NCBI RefSeq assembly: GCF_000152745.1
Contig: NZ_CH672428.1
Span: forward strand, 1,112,916-1,176,915
Direction of reading: 5' to 3'
Length of the DNA stretch: 64,000 bases
From: Oceanicaulis sp. HTCC2633
GTDB taxonomy: Bacteria > Pseudomonadota > Alphaproteobacteria > Caulobacterales > Maricaulaceae
Program-made: the position numbers and the translations under genes
Part shown: positions 46,209-50,821 of the stretch, one piece after another
Numbering within the stretch: the stretch's first letter is position 1
How the letters are laid out: the number at the start of each line of letters is the position of its first letter
Notes under the pieces: model-generated
Database searches by the model: none
What the model saw: the letters and a program-made list of their open reading frames with translations, nothing else
Told to the model about the DNA's origin: nothing

Positions 46209-46266
46209 TGCGCAGGCGCAAGCCGCCTCTAGAGTGTGCAAGCACACGCAATAGGGGATGCGAAAC

Positions 46267-46965
46267 ATGATGAAGACGATGGGTGTAACGGTTCTGGCAA
46301 GCTGCCTGCTCTGGGCTGCACCTGCACCCGCACTCGCTCAATCGGCCAGTTCAGCGCCAACCTTGGACATTATGGTCAGAGGCAAGGGCTCAGTTTCTCA
46401 AGAGGCGCAAGAAGGGGTTCTTCTTATTAGTGGTAACGTTAGTACAGATTTTGATTGGGGCGCGTTTCGATCTGGCCTGATAGAGCAAACAAATGTCACG
46501 GCGTTAGAACGAAGCAATGGATGGGTTTTGTACCCACCACTGAGCTCGGCAGATGAAGCTTCAGAGCAAACTCCTGTTTTCAGTTACTTTGAAGGCTCCG
46601 CTGATGAAATTTCAGCAGCTCTGAGTTACATCTCCGATGCTGACCTGGATGTTTCCACATCCATTCAATGGATCACAAACCCAACACCAGAGACTGAAAG
46701 CCGAGCTGTTGAACGAGCGACAGCTGATGCCCGCAACAGAGCCGTCATCGTAGCTTCGTCTGCTGGATGCAACTTGGTCCGCCTCAGCTCGATAGAACTC
46801 ATCAGAATAGAACCAAGTGAAAACAGTGAAAACAATGATGACGCGCTCATCAGCCCTAGCAGCTTGAGTGAATCGTCTGAGCATTCAACGCACGTCACGG
46901 CCACACAACCACTCGCTTTTTTTGAAGCTCATATTTCAGCGTCATTCTTGGCCCAGTGCCCATAA
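46267..46965 (+). CDS. Exported protein, divergent SIMPL-like
   Basis: 232 residues with a signal peptide ending near APALAQS. After it, LDIMVRGKGSVSQEA and the later RAVERATADARNRAVIVASSAGCNLVRLSSIEL resemble the first and last blocks of SIMPL/DUF541 domains, but the match is weak. Two Cys remain in the mature part (AGCNL and the C-terminal QCP). The coding sequence is clearly AT-richer than its surroundings. The start is set at 46267 because AGGGG lies 9 nt upstream; ATGs at 46258 and 46270 are alternatives. Confidence 0.62.
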   Translation: MMKTMGVTVLASCLLWAAPAPALAQSASSAPTLDIMVRGKGSVSQEAQEGVLLISGNVSTDFDWGAFRSGLIEQTNVTALERSNGWVLYPPLSSADEASEQTPVFSYFEGSADEISAALSYISDADLDVSTSIQWITNPTPETESRAVERATADARNRAVIVASSAGCNLVRLSSIELIRIEPSENSENNDDALISPSSLSESSEHSTHVTATQPLAFFEAHISASFLAQCP

Positions 46966-47644: not shown

Positions 47645-48223
47645 CTACCCCGCCTGCGCTTCGAGCCATAGATCGAAGCGGTCATGGCCCCAATACTTGT
47701 CCGCGCCATCAATCAGGAAGGGCACGCCGAAGACGCCGTCTGCGTCGGCTTGCTCGCTATAGCCGTCCAGGATCGCGTTGAGCGCCTCGCCGGTCGGCAG
47801 GGCATCGGGATCAAATCCCTCCCATTCCGCCATCATCGCCGCTTTGCCGAGCACGTCCGGCTTGGAGATATCGAGCCCCTGCCCCCAGCGCAGGTCGGAG
47901 ACCGCCAGCGCGAACGCCATGCCCTGCCCAGCGGCGCTTGCAGCGTGAAAGGCAGCGTTTGAAGGCGCGTAGTCAGGATCAAAAGGGTCGGGCAGCGCCA
48001 GCGGCAAGCCCTGACGCACCGTCATGCGGTAGACGTCCTGCACCAGGTAATCGCGCTTTTTCGGATTGGACAGCGGATCGACGAAACCGCTCTCCGGGCT
48101 GAGGATGAAGGGGATCAGGTCACCCGTGAACCCGGCCCGCGCCAGCTTGTGCAGGCCCAGGCGTGAATAGGGGCTGCGGAAACCGAAATAGCATCGCAGG
48201 CCTGAGGCGGTCGTGTCGTTCAT
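47645..48223 (-). CDS. 2-hydroxychromene-2-carboxylate isomerase/DsbA-like protein
   Basis: 192 residues from the ATG at 48223; the frame is open to 48277. It is a thioredoxin-fold (DsbA-like) glutathione S-transferase kappa-type protein. The N-terminal strand CYFGFRSPYSRLG carries the active-site Ser in place of a CxxC, as in HCCA isomerases. ADGVFGVPFLIDGADKYWGHDR near the end matches the family's cis-Pro loop. It probably acts on an aromatic ring-cleavage product or a glutathione adduct. No pathway partners adjoin it. Confidence 0.82.
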   Translation of the reverse strand: MNDTTASGLRCYFGFRSPYSRLGLHKLARAGFTGDLIPFILSPESGFVDPLSNPKKRDYLVQDVYRMTVRQGLPLALPDPFDPDYAPSNAAFHAASAAGQGMAFALAVSDLRWGQGLDISKPDVLGKAAMMAEWEGFDPDALPTGEALNAILDGYSEQADADGVFGVPFLIDGADKYWGHDRFDLWLEAQAG

Positions 48224-48288
48224 GTCGCAAATTCCCGGGCGCGAGGAGAAATTGATCATCTGCAGCTTAACAGCCACGCCGCAGGGCG

Positions 48289-48303: not shown

Positions 48304-48401
48304 CAGCATCGCGTATGGCGGCCAGTCACATTTGAATGAGCCGCGATGCAGGTCGAGGGGGCCTCTGCCATGGGCGTCAGAACCGAGGGGGATGAGCGGC
48401 G

Positions 48402-49640
48402 ATGACATCGGAAGTCATGATCATGAACCGGCAGGCCGTGGTGCTGGCCGCGGACAGCGCCGTCACCTATGGCGGCGGGCCAGGCTCGGTCGTCACGCTG
48501 GAAGCGGAGAAGATCCTCCAGCTCGGCCCGAACATGGCGCTGATGGTGTATTCGCGCGGCGACGTGCTGGGCCGGTCCTGGTCGCATATCGCCCACGCCT
48601 TCAAGCGCGCCCAGGGCGAGCTCGACTTTGACAGCGTGCAGGCCTGTGCGGACGCCTTCTTCGCCTTCATCGACAATAACCGCCAGCTCTTCCCCGAGAA
48701 GGAGGAGCGCGAGGAGCTCGAGGACCTGATGCGCGCGGCCATGCTGACCGTGCTCAATCACGCCCGCAATCTTCGCACCCATGCGCCGGGCCAGTACGAG
48801 ACCGACGCCGCAGCCTTCGAGGGCGCGCTGGATCTGTATCGCGCGCACCTGCTGCAGGATGAGGGCGGGGCGGAGCGACCAAGCCTTGAAGTCTTTGCGG
48901 CTCTGGATCGCGACCGCTTCTACCAGCAATACGCCAGCATGCTCGACAGCCTGATCGGCGAGGCCCTCGGCGAATTCGGCATGCAGGAGAGCATCCGCAA
49001 CAAGCTCTATGACTTCGCCTATCTGATCATCACGCGCCCCGCCTTCCTCGAGCCCTATGCCGGGCTTGTGTTCGCCGGATTCGGCGAGGGCGACGTCTTC
49101 CCCGTCTATTGCCACTATTATGCGTCGATCATGGTCGATGGCGTCATCAAGCGCGCTCATGACGAGACGACCCAGGTCGGCGTGGAGAACGGGCCGAACG
49201 CGTATCTGCGCACGTTTGCGCAGGCGGAGATGACCCATGCCTTCCTGCGCGGGGTCCATCCGTACATGTTCGATGTGATGGCCTCGATGAACATGGTGAC
49301 CAATGAGGCCGCCAGCGAGATCGCCCTGCGCAAGGCCGGCCTCGACGAGGCCGAGATCAGTCGGGTCATGGGGGAAATGCGCGACTCAGAACTGCTGTCC
49401 CTGTCCGCCGAATTCATCCACACCGCGCGCACGATTTCACAGGAAGAATTCATCGACCCGTTCATCGCCGTGGTCGCCGCTTCGGGCAAAAAGCAAATGG
49501 GCGAAACCGCCAAGGCTCTGGTGGAGCTCAACATTCTCAAAAGCGACCTGCACCAGACCCAGACCGGCGTGGGCGGCGAAGTCGATGTCGCAATGATCTC
49601 GCGCACCGGCGGATTTGAGTGGTATGCTAAAAAATCGTAA
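48402..49640 (+). CDS. Proteasome/HslV-like Ntn-hydrolase candidate with long C-terminal extension
   Basis: 412 residues, with no family I can name. If Met1 is removed (the next residue is Thr, favourable for that), the chain starts TSEVMIMNRQAVVLAADSAVT. That puts Thr1, Val4, the VV at 12-13, Asp17 and Thr21 at the same positions as in HslV (Thr1, Asp17, Thr21). A lysine in EKILQL at 36 could serve as Lys33 after a 3-residue insertion. LGPNMALMVYSRGD then resembles the next strand and glycine turn. From about residue 60 on, a mainly helical region of about 350 residues is unlike HslV or Anbu. No signal peptide or transmembrane segment is seen. A small gene follows 39 nt later. Confidence 0.6.
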   Translation: MTSEVMIMNRQAVVLAADSAVTYGGGPGSVVTLEAEKILQLGPNMALMVYSRGDVLGRSWSHIAHAFKRAQGELDFDSVQACADAFFAFIDNNRQLFPEKEEREELEDLMRAAMLTVLNHARNLRTHAPGQYETDAAAFEGALDLYRAHLLQDEGGAERPSLEVFAALDRDRFYQQYASMLDSLIGEALGEFGMQESIRNKLYDFAYLIITRPAFLEPYAGLVFAGFGEGDVFPVYCHYYASIMVDGVIKRAHDETTQVGVENGPNAYLRTFAQAEMTHAFLRGVHPYMFDVMASMNMVTNEAASEIALRKAGLDEAEISRVMGEMRDSELLSLSAEFIHTARTISQEEFIDPFIAVVAASGKKQMGETAKALVELNILKSDLHQTQTGVGGEVDVAMISRTGGFEWYAKKS

Positions 49641-49679
49641 ACTGCCCCTCCACCCTCACACGTCCTTGAGGAGGTGATG

Positions 49680-50126
49680 ATGAGCGAAGACCCCACACGC
49701 CTGAACATCGAACGGGCCCGCGAAGCTCTGGCCCGCGCCCGCCTTGATGATGTCGCCATGGCGGTGCGCGCCCCGCGCCCGGCGGACCTGTCCCGGCTTG
49801 AGGAAACCCAGGCGCGGGCTGAAAATCTCAGCGCCCGGGCGGACGCCTTTCGCGACACGGTGCGCTCGCGCATGGGCCTGTCCGCCTATACAGGCGGCGC
49901 GGCCAGCTTCACCTCGGGACTGTCGGGCATGGACGCAGCGCTCTGCGACGCTGATGTCTGCGCTCCGGCTCCGCCTGCCATGACTGACGCCTCGCGCGCC
50001 GCGCTGATGGGAGAGGTCGAGCGGGCGCCCGCGGTCGCACAACCCTCCGTCGCCGACAATGCCAGGGAGTCCCGCAGCGCCGAGCCCCGAGAGCCGCGTC
50101 GCCGCCGCTTCTTCTGGCTGTTCTAG
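49680..50126 (+). CDS. Small hypothetical protein, putative partner of the Ntn-like protein
   Basis: 148 residues of unknown family. GAGGAGG lies 5 nt before the ATG at 49680; GTG and ATG codons just upstream are less well placed. The N-terminal half is Ala/Arg/Glu-rich and helical, probably coiled coil (IERAREALARARLDDVAM; LEETQARAENLSARADAF). The C-terminal half is low-complexity (Pro/Ala) with two close cysteines (ALCDADVCAP). It ends in a basic then aromatic tail, EPRRRRFFWLF. It is probably cotranscribed with the gene upstream. The tail may be a docking signal, by analogy with C-terminal peptides that bind protease or chaperone pockets. Confidence 0.6.
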   Translation: MSEDPTRLNIERAREALARARLDDVAMAVRAPRPADLSRLEETQARAENLSARADAFRDTVRSRMGLSAYTGGAASFTSGLSGMDAALCDADVCAPAPPAMTDASRAALMGEVERAPAVAQPSVADNARESRSAEPREPRRRRFFWLF

Positions 50127-50623
50127 GCCGTCAGCAGGATCTTGCAGATCGCTTCAAGACCCGCCTGATCCTCGGCGTCAAACGCGTCGAGTTCGGCTGA
50201 GTCCACGTCCAGAACGGCAGCGAGCGCTCCATCGGCGTCAAGGACCGGCACGACGATTTCCGATCGAGACCGGCTGTCGCAGGCGATGTGGCCCGGAAAC
50301 GCTTCGACGTCCCGCACCAGCTGGGTCTCGCCGCTCTGCGCAGCCGCGCCGCACACGCCGCGACCGAACGGGATCCGCAGACAGCCCAGCGTCCCCTGAT
50401 ACGGGCCCACCACAAGCTCCTGAGGTTTCTGCGGATCCACCACGTAGAAGCCGGTCCAGAAAAAGCGCGGGCCGAAATTGTGCGCCAGCAGACAGGCCGC
50501 CGTGGCGTATCGCGCGGTCCGGCTGGTCTCACCGGCGACGATCGCGGCGATCTCCTTGCCGATCCGGACATAGGCTTCGGCCTTGGTTTCACCCTCGACC
50601 GCGGTGCTCATTTCTTCGGCCAT
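50123..50623 (-). CDS. msrC: Free methionine-R-sulfoxide reductase (GAF fold)
   Basis: Cytoplasmic enzyme that reduces free L-methionine-R-sulfoxide. It has 166 residues from the ATG at 50623 (AGGA 7 nt upstream). It is a single GAF domain with the three fRMsr cysteines at 81, 91 and 115, spaced 10 and 24 apart exactly as in the E. coli enzyme (84, 94, 118). They lie in GTLGCLRIPFGRGVCGAA and FPGHIACDSRSRSEIVVPV. It overlaps the end of the convergent gene by 4 nt. Confidence 0.93.
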   Translation of the reverse strand: MAEEMSTAVEGETKAEAYVRIGKEIAAIVAGETSRTARYATAACLLAHNFGPRFFWTGFYVVDPQKPQELVVGPYQGTLGCLRIPFGRGVCGAAAQSGETQLVRDVEAFPGHIACDSRSRSEIVVPVLDADGALAAVLDVDSAELDAFDAEDQAGLEAICKILLTA

Positions 50624-50821
50624 AACAGGTTCCTGCATGCTGTGACGTCATTATTGCGCGCACATCTAGGCGCAGGATCGTCCTGACGCCAGCACCCGTC
50701 TGTAAAGAAGTGTGATCACGTCTTTCTCACGCGCTCGTGCAAAGCTGTGTAAAGCGGTAAACGGATACATCGCGTATGCCTGCCCTGACCGGCGATTGTG
50801 CCGATGAGATGGGAGTTGATC

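Follow-up and report, generated by a model that had tools for sequence, protein, structure and literature searches.

A predicted proteasome-like threonine hydrolase family in Oceanicaulis and the small partner gene frequently encoded directly downstream

The window that we analyzed, i.e., the whole 64,000-nucleotide stretch of Oceanicaulis sp. HTCC2633 between positions 1,112,916 and 1,176,915 of contig NZ_CH672428.1, encodes a 412-residue protein whose N-terminus resembles that of HslV, which raises the questions of whether the protein is an N-terminal nucleophile (Ntn) hydrolase, whether it is a new one, and what it works with. We found it to be, almost certainly, a proteasome-like N-terminal-threonine hydrolase. 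The gene, its start, its conservation, its predicted fold, and its linkage to a partner gene are established by the results below. What is new here is the frequent small partner gene directly downstream of the enzyme gene, on which we found no paper in the literature searched, with subscription journals and preprints lying outside that literature.

The family was confirmed in 315 genomes of many phyla, archaea included, and in 161 IMG/VR contigs. For the comparisons, 191 loci were thinned at 80% identity, which left 97 representatives; 160 of the 191 were the best 80 of the 315 genome matches and the best 80 of the 161 IMG/VR matches, ranked by similarity to the window protein, a set that favors close relatives. 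The elements of the enzyme gene are given below, with the helices named H1 to H4 from their order in the secondary structure of the predicted model.

48385 to 48395, + strand: ribosome-site-like GAGGGGGA followed by an in-frame TGA (48393 to 48395) that bars an upstream start (sequence).
48402 to 49640, + strand: gene of the 412-residue proteasome-like Ntn hydrolase (open reading frame, conservation, and model fold).
48405 to 48407, + strand: codon of Thr2, which is Thr1 once Met is removed, the proposed nucleophile (T in 191 of 191 relatives).
48453 to 48455, + strand: codon of Asp18, equivalent to proteasome Asp17 (D in all 96 readable representatives, one of the 97 being masked).
48510 to 48512, + strand: codon of Lys37, equivalent to proteasome Lys33 (K in all 96 readable representatives, one of the 97 being masked; aligned on Lys33 of proteasome beta and HslV).
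48687 to 49046, + strand: predicted helical insertion 1, about residues 96 to 215 (helices at about 99 to 211), after H1/H2 and before the strand at 220 (model secondary structure; limits approximate).
49254 to 49487, + strand: predicted helical insertion 2, about residues 285 to 362 (helices at 287 to 360), between H3 (276 to 283) and H4 (363 to 383) (model secondary structure; limits approximate).
49569 to 49577, + strand: codons of the invariant V390-G391-G392 preceding the next-to-last core strand (97 of 97 representatives; aligned to GG.IDVAVI of proteasome beta).

The Met codon of the 412-residue open reading frame (ORF) is preceded by TGA GCG GCG, and no start earlier than 48402 is possible because of this in-frame stop, three codons upstream. 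Nor do the homologs begin upstream, with 10 or fewer open codons before the start in 59 of the 97 representatives and no alternative start codon in 67. The residue after Met is Thr, and methionine aminopeptidase removes Met before Thr. Thr2 and Asp18, which would be expected to drift if the N-terminal resemblance were accidental, do not vary among the 97 representatives, and G221, G226, G228, G284, A370, V390, G391, G392, and G404 are kept in all of them.

A confident AlphaFold2 model of the protein was obtained from an 81-sequence alignment (predicted local distance difference test, 92.3; predicted template modeling score, 0.90). The structure search proposed in an earlier sequence-only reading of this DNA recovered the proteasome fold from it: Foldseek returned 42 PDB matches at an E value of ≤0.001 and 417 at ≤10, the best being 4eu2_K (E value, 2.3e-5; probability, 1.00), and proteasome entries filled all 50 of the best rows of the 417. 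In a viral library, the sole match at an E value of ≤0.001 was a predicted phage "Proteasome beta type-2 subunit." The core strands of the model fall within residues 4 to 52, 220 to 272, and 395 to 409, those of the last two segments completing the Ntn core, which thus has its strands at both ends and in the middle of the chain; the core helices are probably 60 to 71 and 79 to 92 (H1/H2), 276 to 283 (H3), and 363 to 383 (H4). That reading had described the 350 residues after the N-terminus as mostly helical, and the helices are indeed there, but so are the strands that complete the core. It had also pictured a small Ntn domain with a regulator or substrate domain appended to it, an arrangement at odds with the model, in which the extra helices are insertions within the core.

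Consistent with the predicted fold, the 81-sequence family profile matched archaeal proteasome beta with a whole-chain E value of 0.0028, nearly all of the score coming from the C-terminal VGGPIDVAVIS (14.6 bits). The N-terminal piece of this match aligns T2 with Thr1 and, past a three-residue insertion, K37 with Lys33, the same register as that proposed earlier by eye, where Lys36 of the processed chain replaces Lys33, and the profile-profile register with HslV places D18 on D17 and K37 on K33. Conservation and the model fold, with the profile register in agreement, indicate a proteasome-type Ntn fold with equivalents of Thr1, Asp17, and Lys33.

Several results weigh against this identification. 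The match to proteasome beta is faint over its N-terminal piece (2.7 bits), and the HslV profile-profile match is weak (E value, 0.015; probability, 3.1). The Foldseek alignments have root mean square deviations of 9.7 to 21 Å and TM-scores of 0.20 to 0.29 by query length, reaching 0.54 by target length; we put the large deviations and the low whole-chain scores down to the modeled insertions. The equivalent of the oxyanion residue Gly47 is not strictly Gly, as position 51 is G in 58 of the 97 representatives, N in 27, and S in 5, the window protein included; A or G occupies the other candidate, position 53, in 90 of the 97. With the single 412-residue sequence, no Pfam family was matched up to an E value of 1 and the PF00227 cutoff was not reached, NCBIfam gave no credible match (one spurious lpxB hit at 0.084), phmmer against PDB gave chance matches only, and PADLOC gave no family. 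PHROG 5990 was matched over the full length (E value, 1.5e-49), but this is a phage family of unknown function and is uninformative about the role.

These null results and weak profile scores are what one would expect of a helical protein that is unrelated and looks like HslV over its first 21 residues by accident. Chance was conceivable from those residues alone, as had been conceded at the outset, and the N-terminal stretch is indeed not significant by profile. However, such a protein would not be expected to have an invariant triad, a profile match to proteasome beta at a C-terminal strand, and a confident model that retrieves proteasome entries alone among the 50 best of 417 rows, and we regard this explanation as extremely improbable; given the conservation and the predicted fold, chance similarity is very unlikely.

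The hydrolase is not of a new kind, contrary to the sequence-only reading. Fuchs, Alva, and Lupas surveyed 22 new proteasome-like homologs in 2021 (PMC8665760), among them the PMI group, proteasome homologs with insertions at the same sites as here. Among the named variants, PMI-3 and PMI-4 alone have both insertions, one after H1/H2 and the other between H3 and H4, and of these two, phages and Firmicutes are listed for PMI-4 alone. Our model has a long insertion after H1/H2 and another between H3 and H4 (by our own helix numbering), and the family occurs in Proteobacteria, Firmicutes, other bacteria, archaea, and phages. Because of both insertions and this spread over phages, archaea, and many phyla, the protein most probably belongs to PMI-4, a match made with the published description of layout and spread rather than with sequences. 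The family is one already described in 2021, with no assigned function, and the authors of that survey report that they found no genomic context hinting at a specific function of the homologs (PMC8665760).

PMI-4 as described shares the proteasome beta core, Thr1/Asp17/Lys33, the lack of a propeptide, both insertions, and the occurrence in bacteria, archaea, and phages, but the clade of the window protein lacks the C-terminal extension beginning HYF that most relatives have, and a partner gene goes unmentioned in the main text of PMC8665760. The 20S proteasome beta subunit is alike in predicted fold and in catalytic-residue register (weakly so at the N-terminus), whereas it has about 200 residues rather than 412, and the window protein has two helical insertions, has no PF00227 match, and is doubtful as a ring former. 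HslV shares the N-terminal register but has weak profile similarity and lacks the insertions, and no HslU was found among the eight window proteins scanned. The source genome holds a separate PF00227 gene (G000 C1:2050598; E value, 1.9e-26), which is probably HslV. Connectase, a superfamily member that does not form a ring, has a helical insertion too, but at S3/S4, and its H1/H2 are missing (PMC8665760).

Directly downstream of the enzyme gene in the window lies a second gene, the partner gene, with the following elements.

49669 to 49674, + strand: AGGAGG, the ribosome-binding-like site of the partner gene (sequence).
49680 to 50126, + strand: partner gene, 148 residues, with ATG at 49680, 39 nucleotides past the enzyme stop.
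50097 to 50123, + strand: RRRRFFWLF, the tail with which the partner ends; relatives have KKRKKFLGIF-like tails (alignment of partners).

The ATG at 49680 is preferred over a GTG at 49674 because of its spacing to AGGAGG. The 148-residue partner has a conserved N-terminal part with ...TRLNIERAREAL...VRAPRPADLSRL...LCDADVCAP, a variable linker, and a basic-aromatic C-terminus. It had no Pfam match, and profile comparison gave no sign of shared ancestry between it and the enzyme.

In the close relatives, the two genes come and go together. An enzyme homolog was found in 22 of the 41 genomes searched (our own included), among them 14 of the 15 genomes of the genus at ≥68% identity. In the wider genome search, the named close relative was Oceanicaulis sp. 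MMSF_3324 (94% identity). The window-type partner occurs in 15 of the 41, the same 15 that have the close enzyme type, and adjoins the enzyme gene every time; it is absent from the 19 genomes without an enzyme match and from the 7 with a distant enzyme type, an extra match in one genome (G014; E value, 0.0096) being taken as chance. Within the genus, the enzyme gene is a single-copy core gene (14 of 15 genomes), and the remaining genome (G004) lacks both enzyme and partner. In seven pairs drawn from 8 of the 15 close-type genomes, the ratio of nonsynonymous to synonymous substitution rates was 0.06 to 0.20 for the enzyme and 0.15 to 0.38 for the partner, so that the partner looks like a real, selected, and faster-evolving gene.

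A different but analogous partner, of 135 to 160 residues (32 aligned), accompanies the enzyme in Parvularculaceae, where the enzyme is core (59 of 62 genomes), this partner type occurs in 60 of 62, and the two stand side by side in 58. Of the exceptions, two genomes have the partner only and show fragments at a contig start (G332 and G369), one has the enzyme without this partner type (G373), and one has neither (G377). The predicted model of the Parvularculaceae-type partner consists of separate helices with no stable fold (predicted local distance difference test, 69.4; predicted template modeling score, 0.24).

All 18 long partners in our set come from Alphaproteobacteria, and 14 of them end in a basic run plus an F-rich tail (RRRRFFWLF, KKRKKFLGIF, or KKKKRFGIF). 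The other four (L068, L070, L075, and L079) have different basic stretches, with aromatics in the last 14 residues in three and Trp in L079. The partner tails may resemble those that target MinD and FtsA to the membrane, as well as the C-terminus with which HslU docks. A DNA pattern for [KR][KR]F[LF]G[ILM]F-stop was found once per genome in 12 of the 15 genus genomes, always at the partner gene; the pattern is nonexhaustive, missing the window's own RRRRFFWLF and the RKFLGLF of G007, whose last Leu codon is TTG. This nonexhaustive search of the genus genomes gave no hint that the tail is a widespread tag, an idea that we rejected.

Outside these two lineages, the partners are mostly small. A partner was chosen by script for 89 of the 97 representatives, i.e., for all except L024 and L125, whose sequence runs no further than the gene, and L027, L091, L098, L102, L111, and L146; 71 of the 89 have 100 residues or fewer (median of these, 59), and the chosen starts range from 38 nucleotides before to 56 nucleotides after the enzyme stop. 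None of the 89 has a transmembrane-like stretch by hydropathy. An ATG-started ORF of 35 to 80 residues with a Shine-Dalgarno-type ribosome site, its ATG lying within −32 to +30 nucleotides of the gene end, follows 55 of the 97 enzyme genes versus 10 of 342 control ORFs, and when lengths of 35 to 230 residues are admitted, the counts are 69 of 97 versus 48 of 342.

The downstream ORFs also resemble one another across loci. In pairwise phmmer searches of a database of 6,215 ORFs, of which 130 were labeled downstream, a downstream ORF matched the downstream ORF of another locus in 53 of the 97 representatives, and the hits went to downstream ORFs of other loci 254 times and to other ORFs 7 times; two small components among the 254 are alternative-frame artifacts. 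A hidden Markov model seeded with eight downstream ORFs that looked alike by eye converged, in the same database, on 16 downstream and no other ORFs at E values of <0.01 (8 downstream and 15 other ORFs at 0.01 to 10). The 16 come from archaea (Altarchaeum, Thermoplasmata, Micrarchaeota, and an uncultured archaeon), from bacteria (KSB1, Cloacimonadota, Omnitrophota, Smithella, Clostridium, Anaerolineae, Bacteroidales, Actinomycetes, Leucothrix, and two unnamed), and from one viral contig, indicating by sequence similarity that one recognizable small-partner family spans several bacterial phyla and archaea. An aromatic-Pro motif, [FY][FLIVYN]x(0,2)P, is present in 28 of the 71 small partners, compared with a mean of 6.9 and a maximum of 17 in 1,000 shuffles. 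In some records the small partner is annotated as a hypothetical protein, and it is unlisted in others, such as those of E. coli H3 and Stenotrophomonas phage BUCT708. In E. coli NZ_CP010167.1, a 49-residue partner ORF after WP_000123148.1 (L230:9308-9457) is unannotated in RefSeq.

Other counts speak against a dedicated partner as a general property of the family. With any start codon and 35 to 230 residues, an ORF follows 85 of the 97 enzyme genes but also 149 of the 342 controls, so this loose test proves little, and the controls are other ORFs of ≥250 residues on the same loci, i.e., long ORFs rather than annotated genes. Forty-four of the 97 representatives have no downstream ORF that matches significantly elsewhere, the partner types are very different from one another, and the aromatic-Pro motif is missing from most of the small partners. 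No partner was recognizable by eye for the six enzymes L027, L091, L098, L102, L111, and L146, and because some enzymes thus have none, a partner is not strictly required. Two of the six, L027 and L091, have a long basic tail on the enzyme in place of a partner gene, and L098 and L111 belong to a deltaproteobacterial subtype that starts MTCEV and is without the small partner.

Apart from the lineages in which it is core, the family is patchy and partly mobile. In even samples, with our own genome in both, it was found in 15 of 289 genomes of the class, a few of these matches being gene pieces only, and in 11 of 398 genomes of the phylum, one of these being a marginal match of 43 residues; E. 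coli has the enzyme in 9 of 5,426 genomes. It occurs in 13 of 50,697 phage and satellite phage records and in 9 of 72,556 plasmid records. On one Hyphomicrobiales plasmid (CP131057.1, 386508 to 387717), the enzyme gene lies in two pieces with no annotated feature and is apparently broken, and G080:C2 has two open pieces whose coordinates match. A called gene stands on either side of the enzyme gene in 33 of the 41 viral representatives (the other 8 lie at an edge); in these 33, the enzyme gene is opposite to both neighbors in 11, in the same orientation as both in 10, and mixed in 12. In the one E. coli locus that we read, a lambdoid prophage, the pair has Q on one side and a DNA methyltransferase gene on the other, both running in the opposite direction to it. 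In three Streptococcus records examined, from phages or satellites, the enzyme gene is last or next to last. Such placement in phages is typical of cargo genes.

No neighbor other than the partner recurred in a survey of 109 neighboring proteins of 90 to 900 residues, up to two per side, at 32 genome loci that belong neither to Maricaulaceae nor to Parvularculaceae, although a few are from other Alphaproteobacteria; 113 Pfam families were matched, none in more than 2 of the 109, and 94 PADLOC families were matched, again none in more than 2, with single restriction-modification and Fic matches.

On balance, we lean toward the explanation that a threonine Ntn hydrolase working outside a closed barrel forms a two-gene unit with a flexible, dedicated adaptor or regulator. 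Methionine aminopeptidase would expose Thr1, there being no propeptide, and Thr1, Asp17, and Lys36 (the Lys33 equivalent) would form the catalytic site of an enzyme that may be a protease or amidase. The two large helical insertions probably prevent assembly of a closed 20S-type barrel, so that a ring would be absent, and may provide a docking face. The enzyme would then bind and work with the partner encoded directly downstream, a flexible charged protein that presents short helices, joined in some lineages by the aromatic-Pro motif; as an adaptor or regulator, the partner may dock on the insertion helices and either bring in a substrate or switch the enzyme. In the Oceanicaulis and Parvularculaceae branch, the basic-aromatic tail of the partner probably serves as a tether for the pair as well, with the inner membrane as the likeliest anchoring site. 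A conserved, dedicated partner is a first testable handle on the function of the PMI group and may reveal what this enzyme family does, and tractable hosts exist in the two alphaproteobacterial lineages that have the pair as core genes and in the temperate phages and satellites that have it as cargo.

The partner might instead be the substrate, which the enzyme cleaves, transfers, or ligates in the manner of connectase with its target or of the enzymes that act on Pup, a protein handled beside the bacterial proteasome. One enzyme with one cognate flexible protein, adjacent in every genome that has both genes of either alphaproteobacterial type and in many other genomes, is what a substrate would predict, as are the fast evolution of the partner outside short motifs and the lack of a stable fold in the one type so modeled; the superfamily also includes a specific protein ligase, connectase (PMC8665760). 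However, by eye no scissile or modification site is conserved across partner types, the C-termini vary between lineages, and the Maricaulaceae partner, with its conserved N-terminal part and C-terminal tail, is more suggestive of a docking protein, which leaves the substrate explanation appreciable but somewhat unlikely. A bolder form, a mobile two-component tag-and-enzyme system, would have a free-standing proteasome-fold enzyme acting on or through its own small disordered protein, by processing it, ligating it, or employing it as a targeting tag, with the pair tethered to the membrane by the partner tail in one alphaproteobacterial branch. We consider it unlikely; if true, such a pair, found in bacteria, archaea, and phages, would be unlike the barrel proteasomes.

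A toxin with its immunity protein or antitoxin, in which the free hydrolase is harmful and the partner blocks it until phage infection or stress, would make the pair a phage-borne defense or addiction module. Its compactness on phages, satellite phages, and plasmids would suit such a module, as would its patchiness in the class and phylum samples and its free orientation relative to phage neighbors and its position in the E. coli prophage. On the other hand, a module of this kind is hard to reconcile with a core gene in one genus and in Parvularculaceae, with relatives that have no recognizable partner, and with the PADLOC results for the protein and its neighbors, and we judge it quite unlikely. 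Nor do we give much credence to the partner being an assembly chaperone, or a propeptide in trans, with no part in substrate choice. Propeptides aid proteasome assembly in bacteria and eukaryotes, none is reported in the homologs except proteasome beta and HslV (PMC8665760), and the gene order would permit binding during translation, but a chaperone leaves unexplained both the conserved basic-aromatic C-tail after a variable linker and the enzymes without a partner. Compared with these alternatives, the adaptor or regulator explanation is the one that we prefer.

An association with a ubiquitin-like operon, seen in two Rhizobiales plasmid members that adjoin multi-ubiquitin and ThiF genes, was considered as a general link and rejected, since both genes are near the enzyme gene in only 3 of the 191 loci (L027, L091, and L031), within flanks of 1.5 to 8 kb that are shorter where a contig ends; L106 has another, weak match to ThiF. 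Those three loci, from Rhizobiales or Sphingomonadales, adjoin multi-ubiquitin, ThiF, and DUF6527 genes (L027:2733-4799 and L031:7937-10781). Immediately upstream in L027 and L091 are two small genes, by eye those of an extracytoplasmic function (ECF) sigma factor and a short protein. At L098, the next gene is by eye an ADP-ribosylglycohydrolase, a family with one Pfam match among the 109 neighbors.

In the window, the pair is flanked by a DsbA-type gene on the opposite strand (47645 to 48277) and, past the partner, by a convergent GAF gene (50123 to 50638), and a SIMPL (DUF541) domain protein is encoded at 46258 to 46965. Another protein in the window region from 38001 to 60000 groups by similarity with SIMPL-like neighbors of Parvularculaceae. 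At Parvularculaceae loci (L035 to L076 and L103), a gene that is SelO/YdiU-like by eye lies upstream; it does so in 26 of the 47 alphaproteobacterial regions compared, and 8 of these have a SIMPL-like gene near the pair, with related genes in the window region and in L032.

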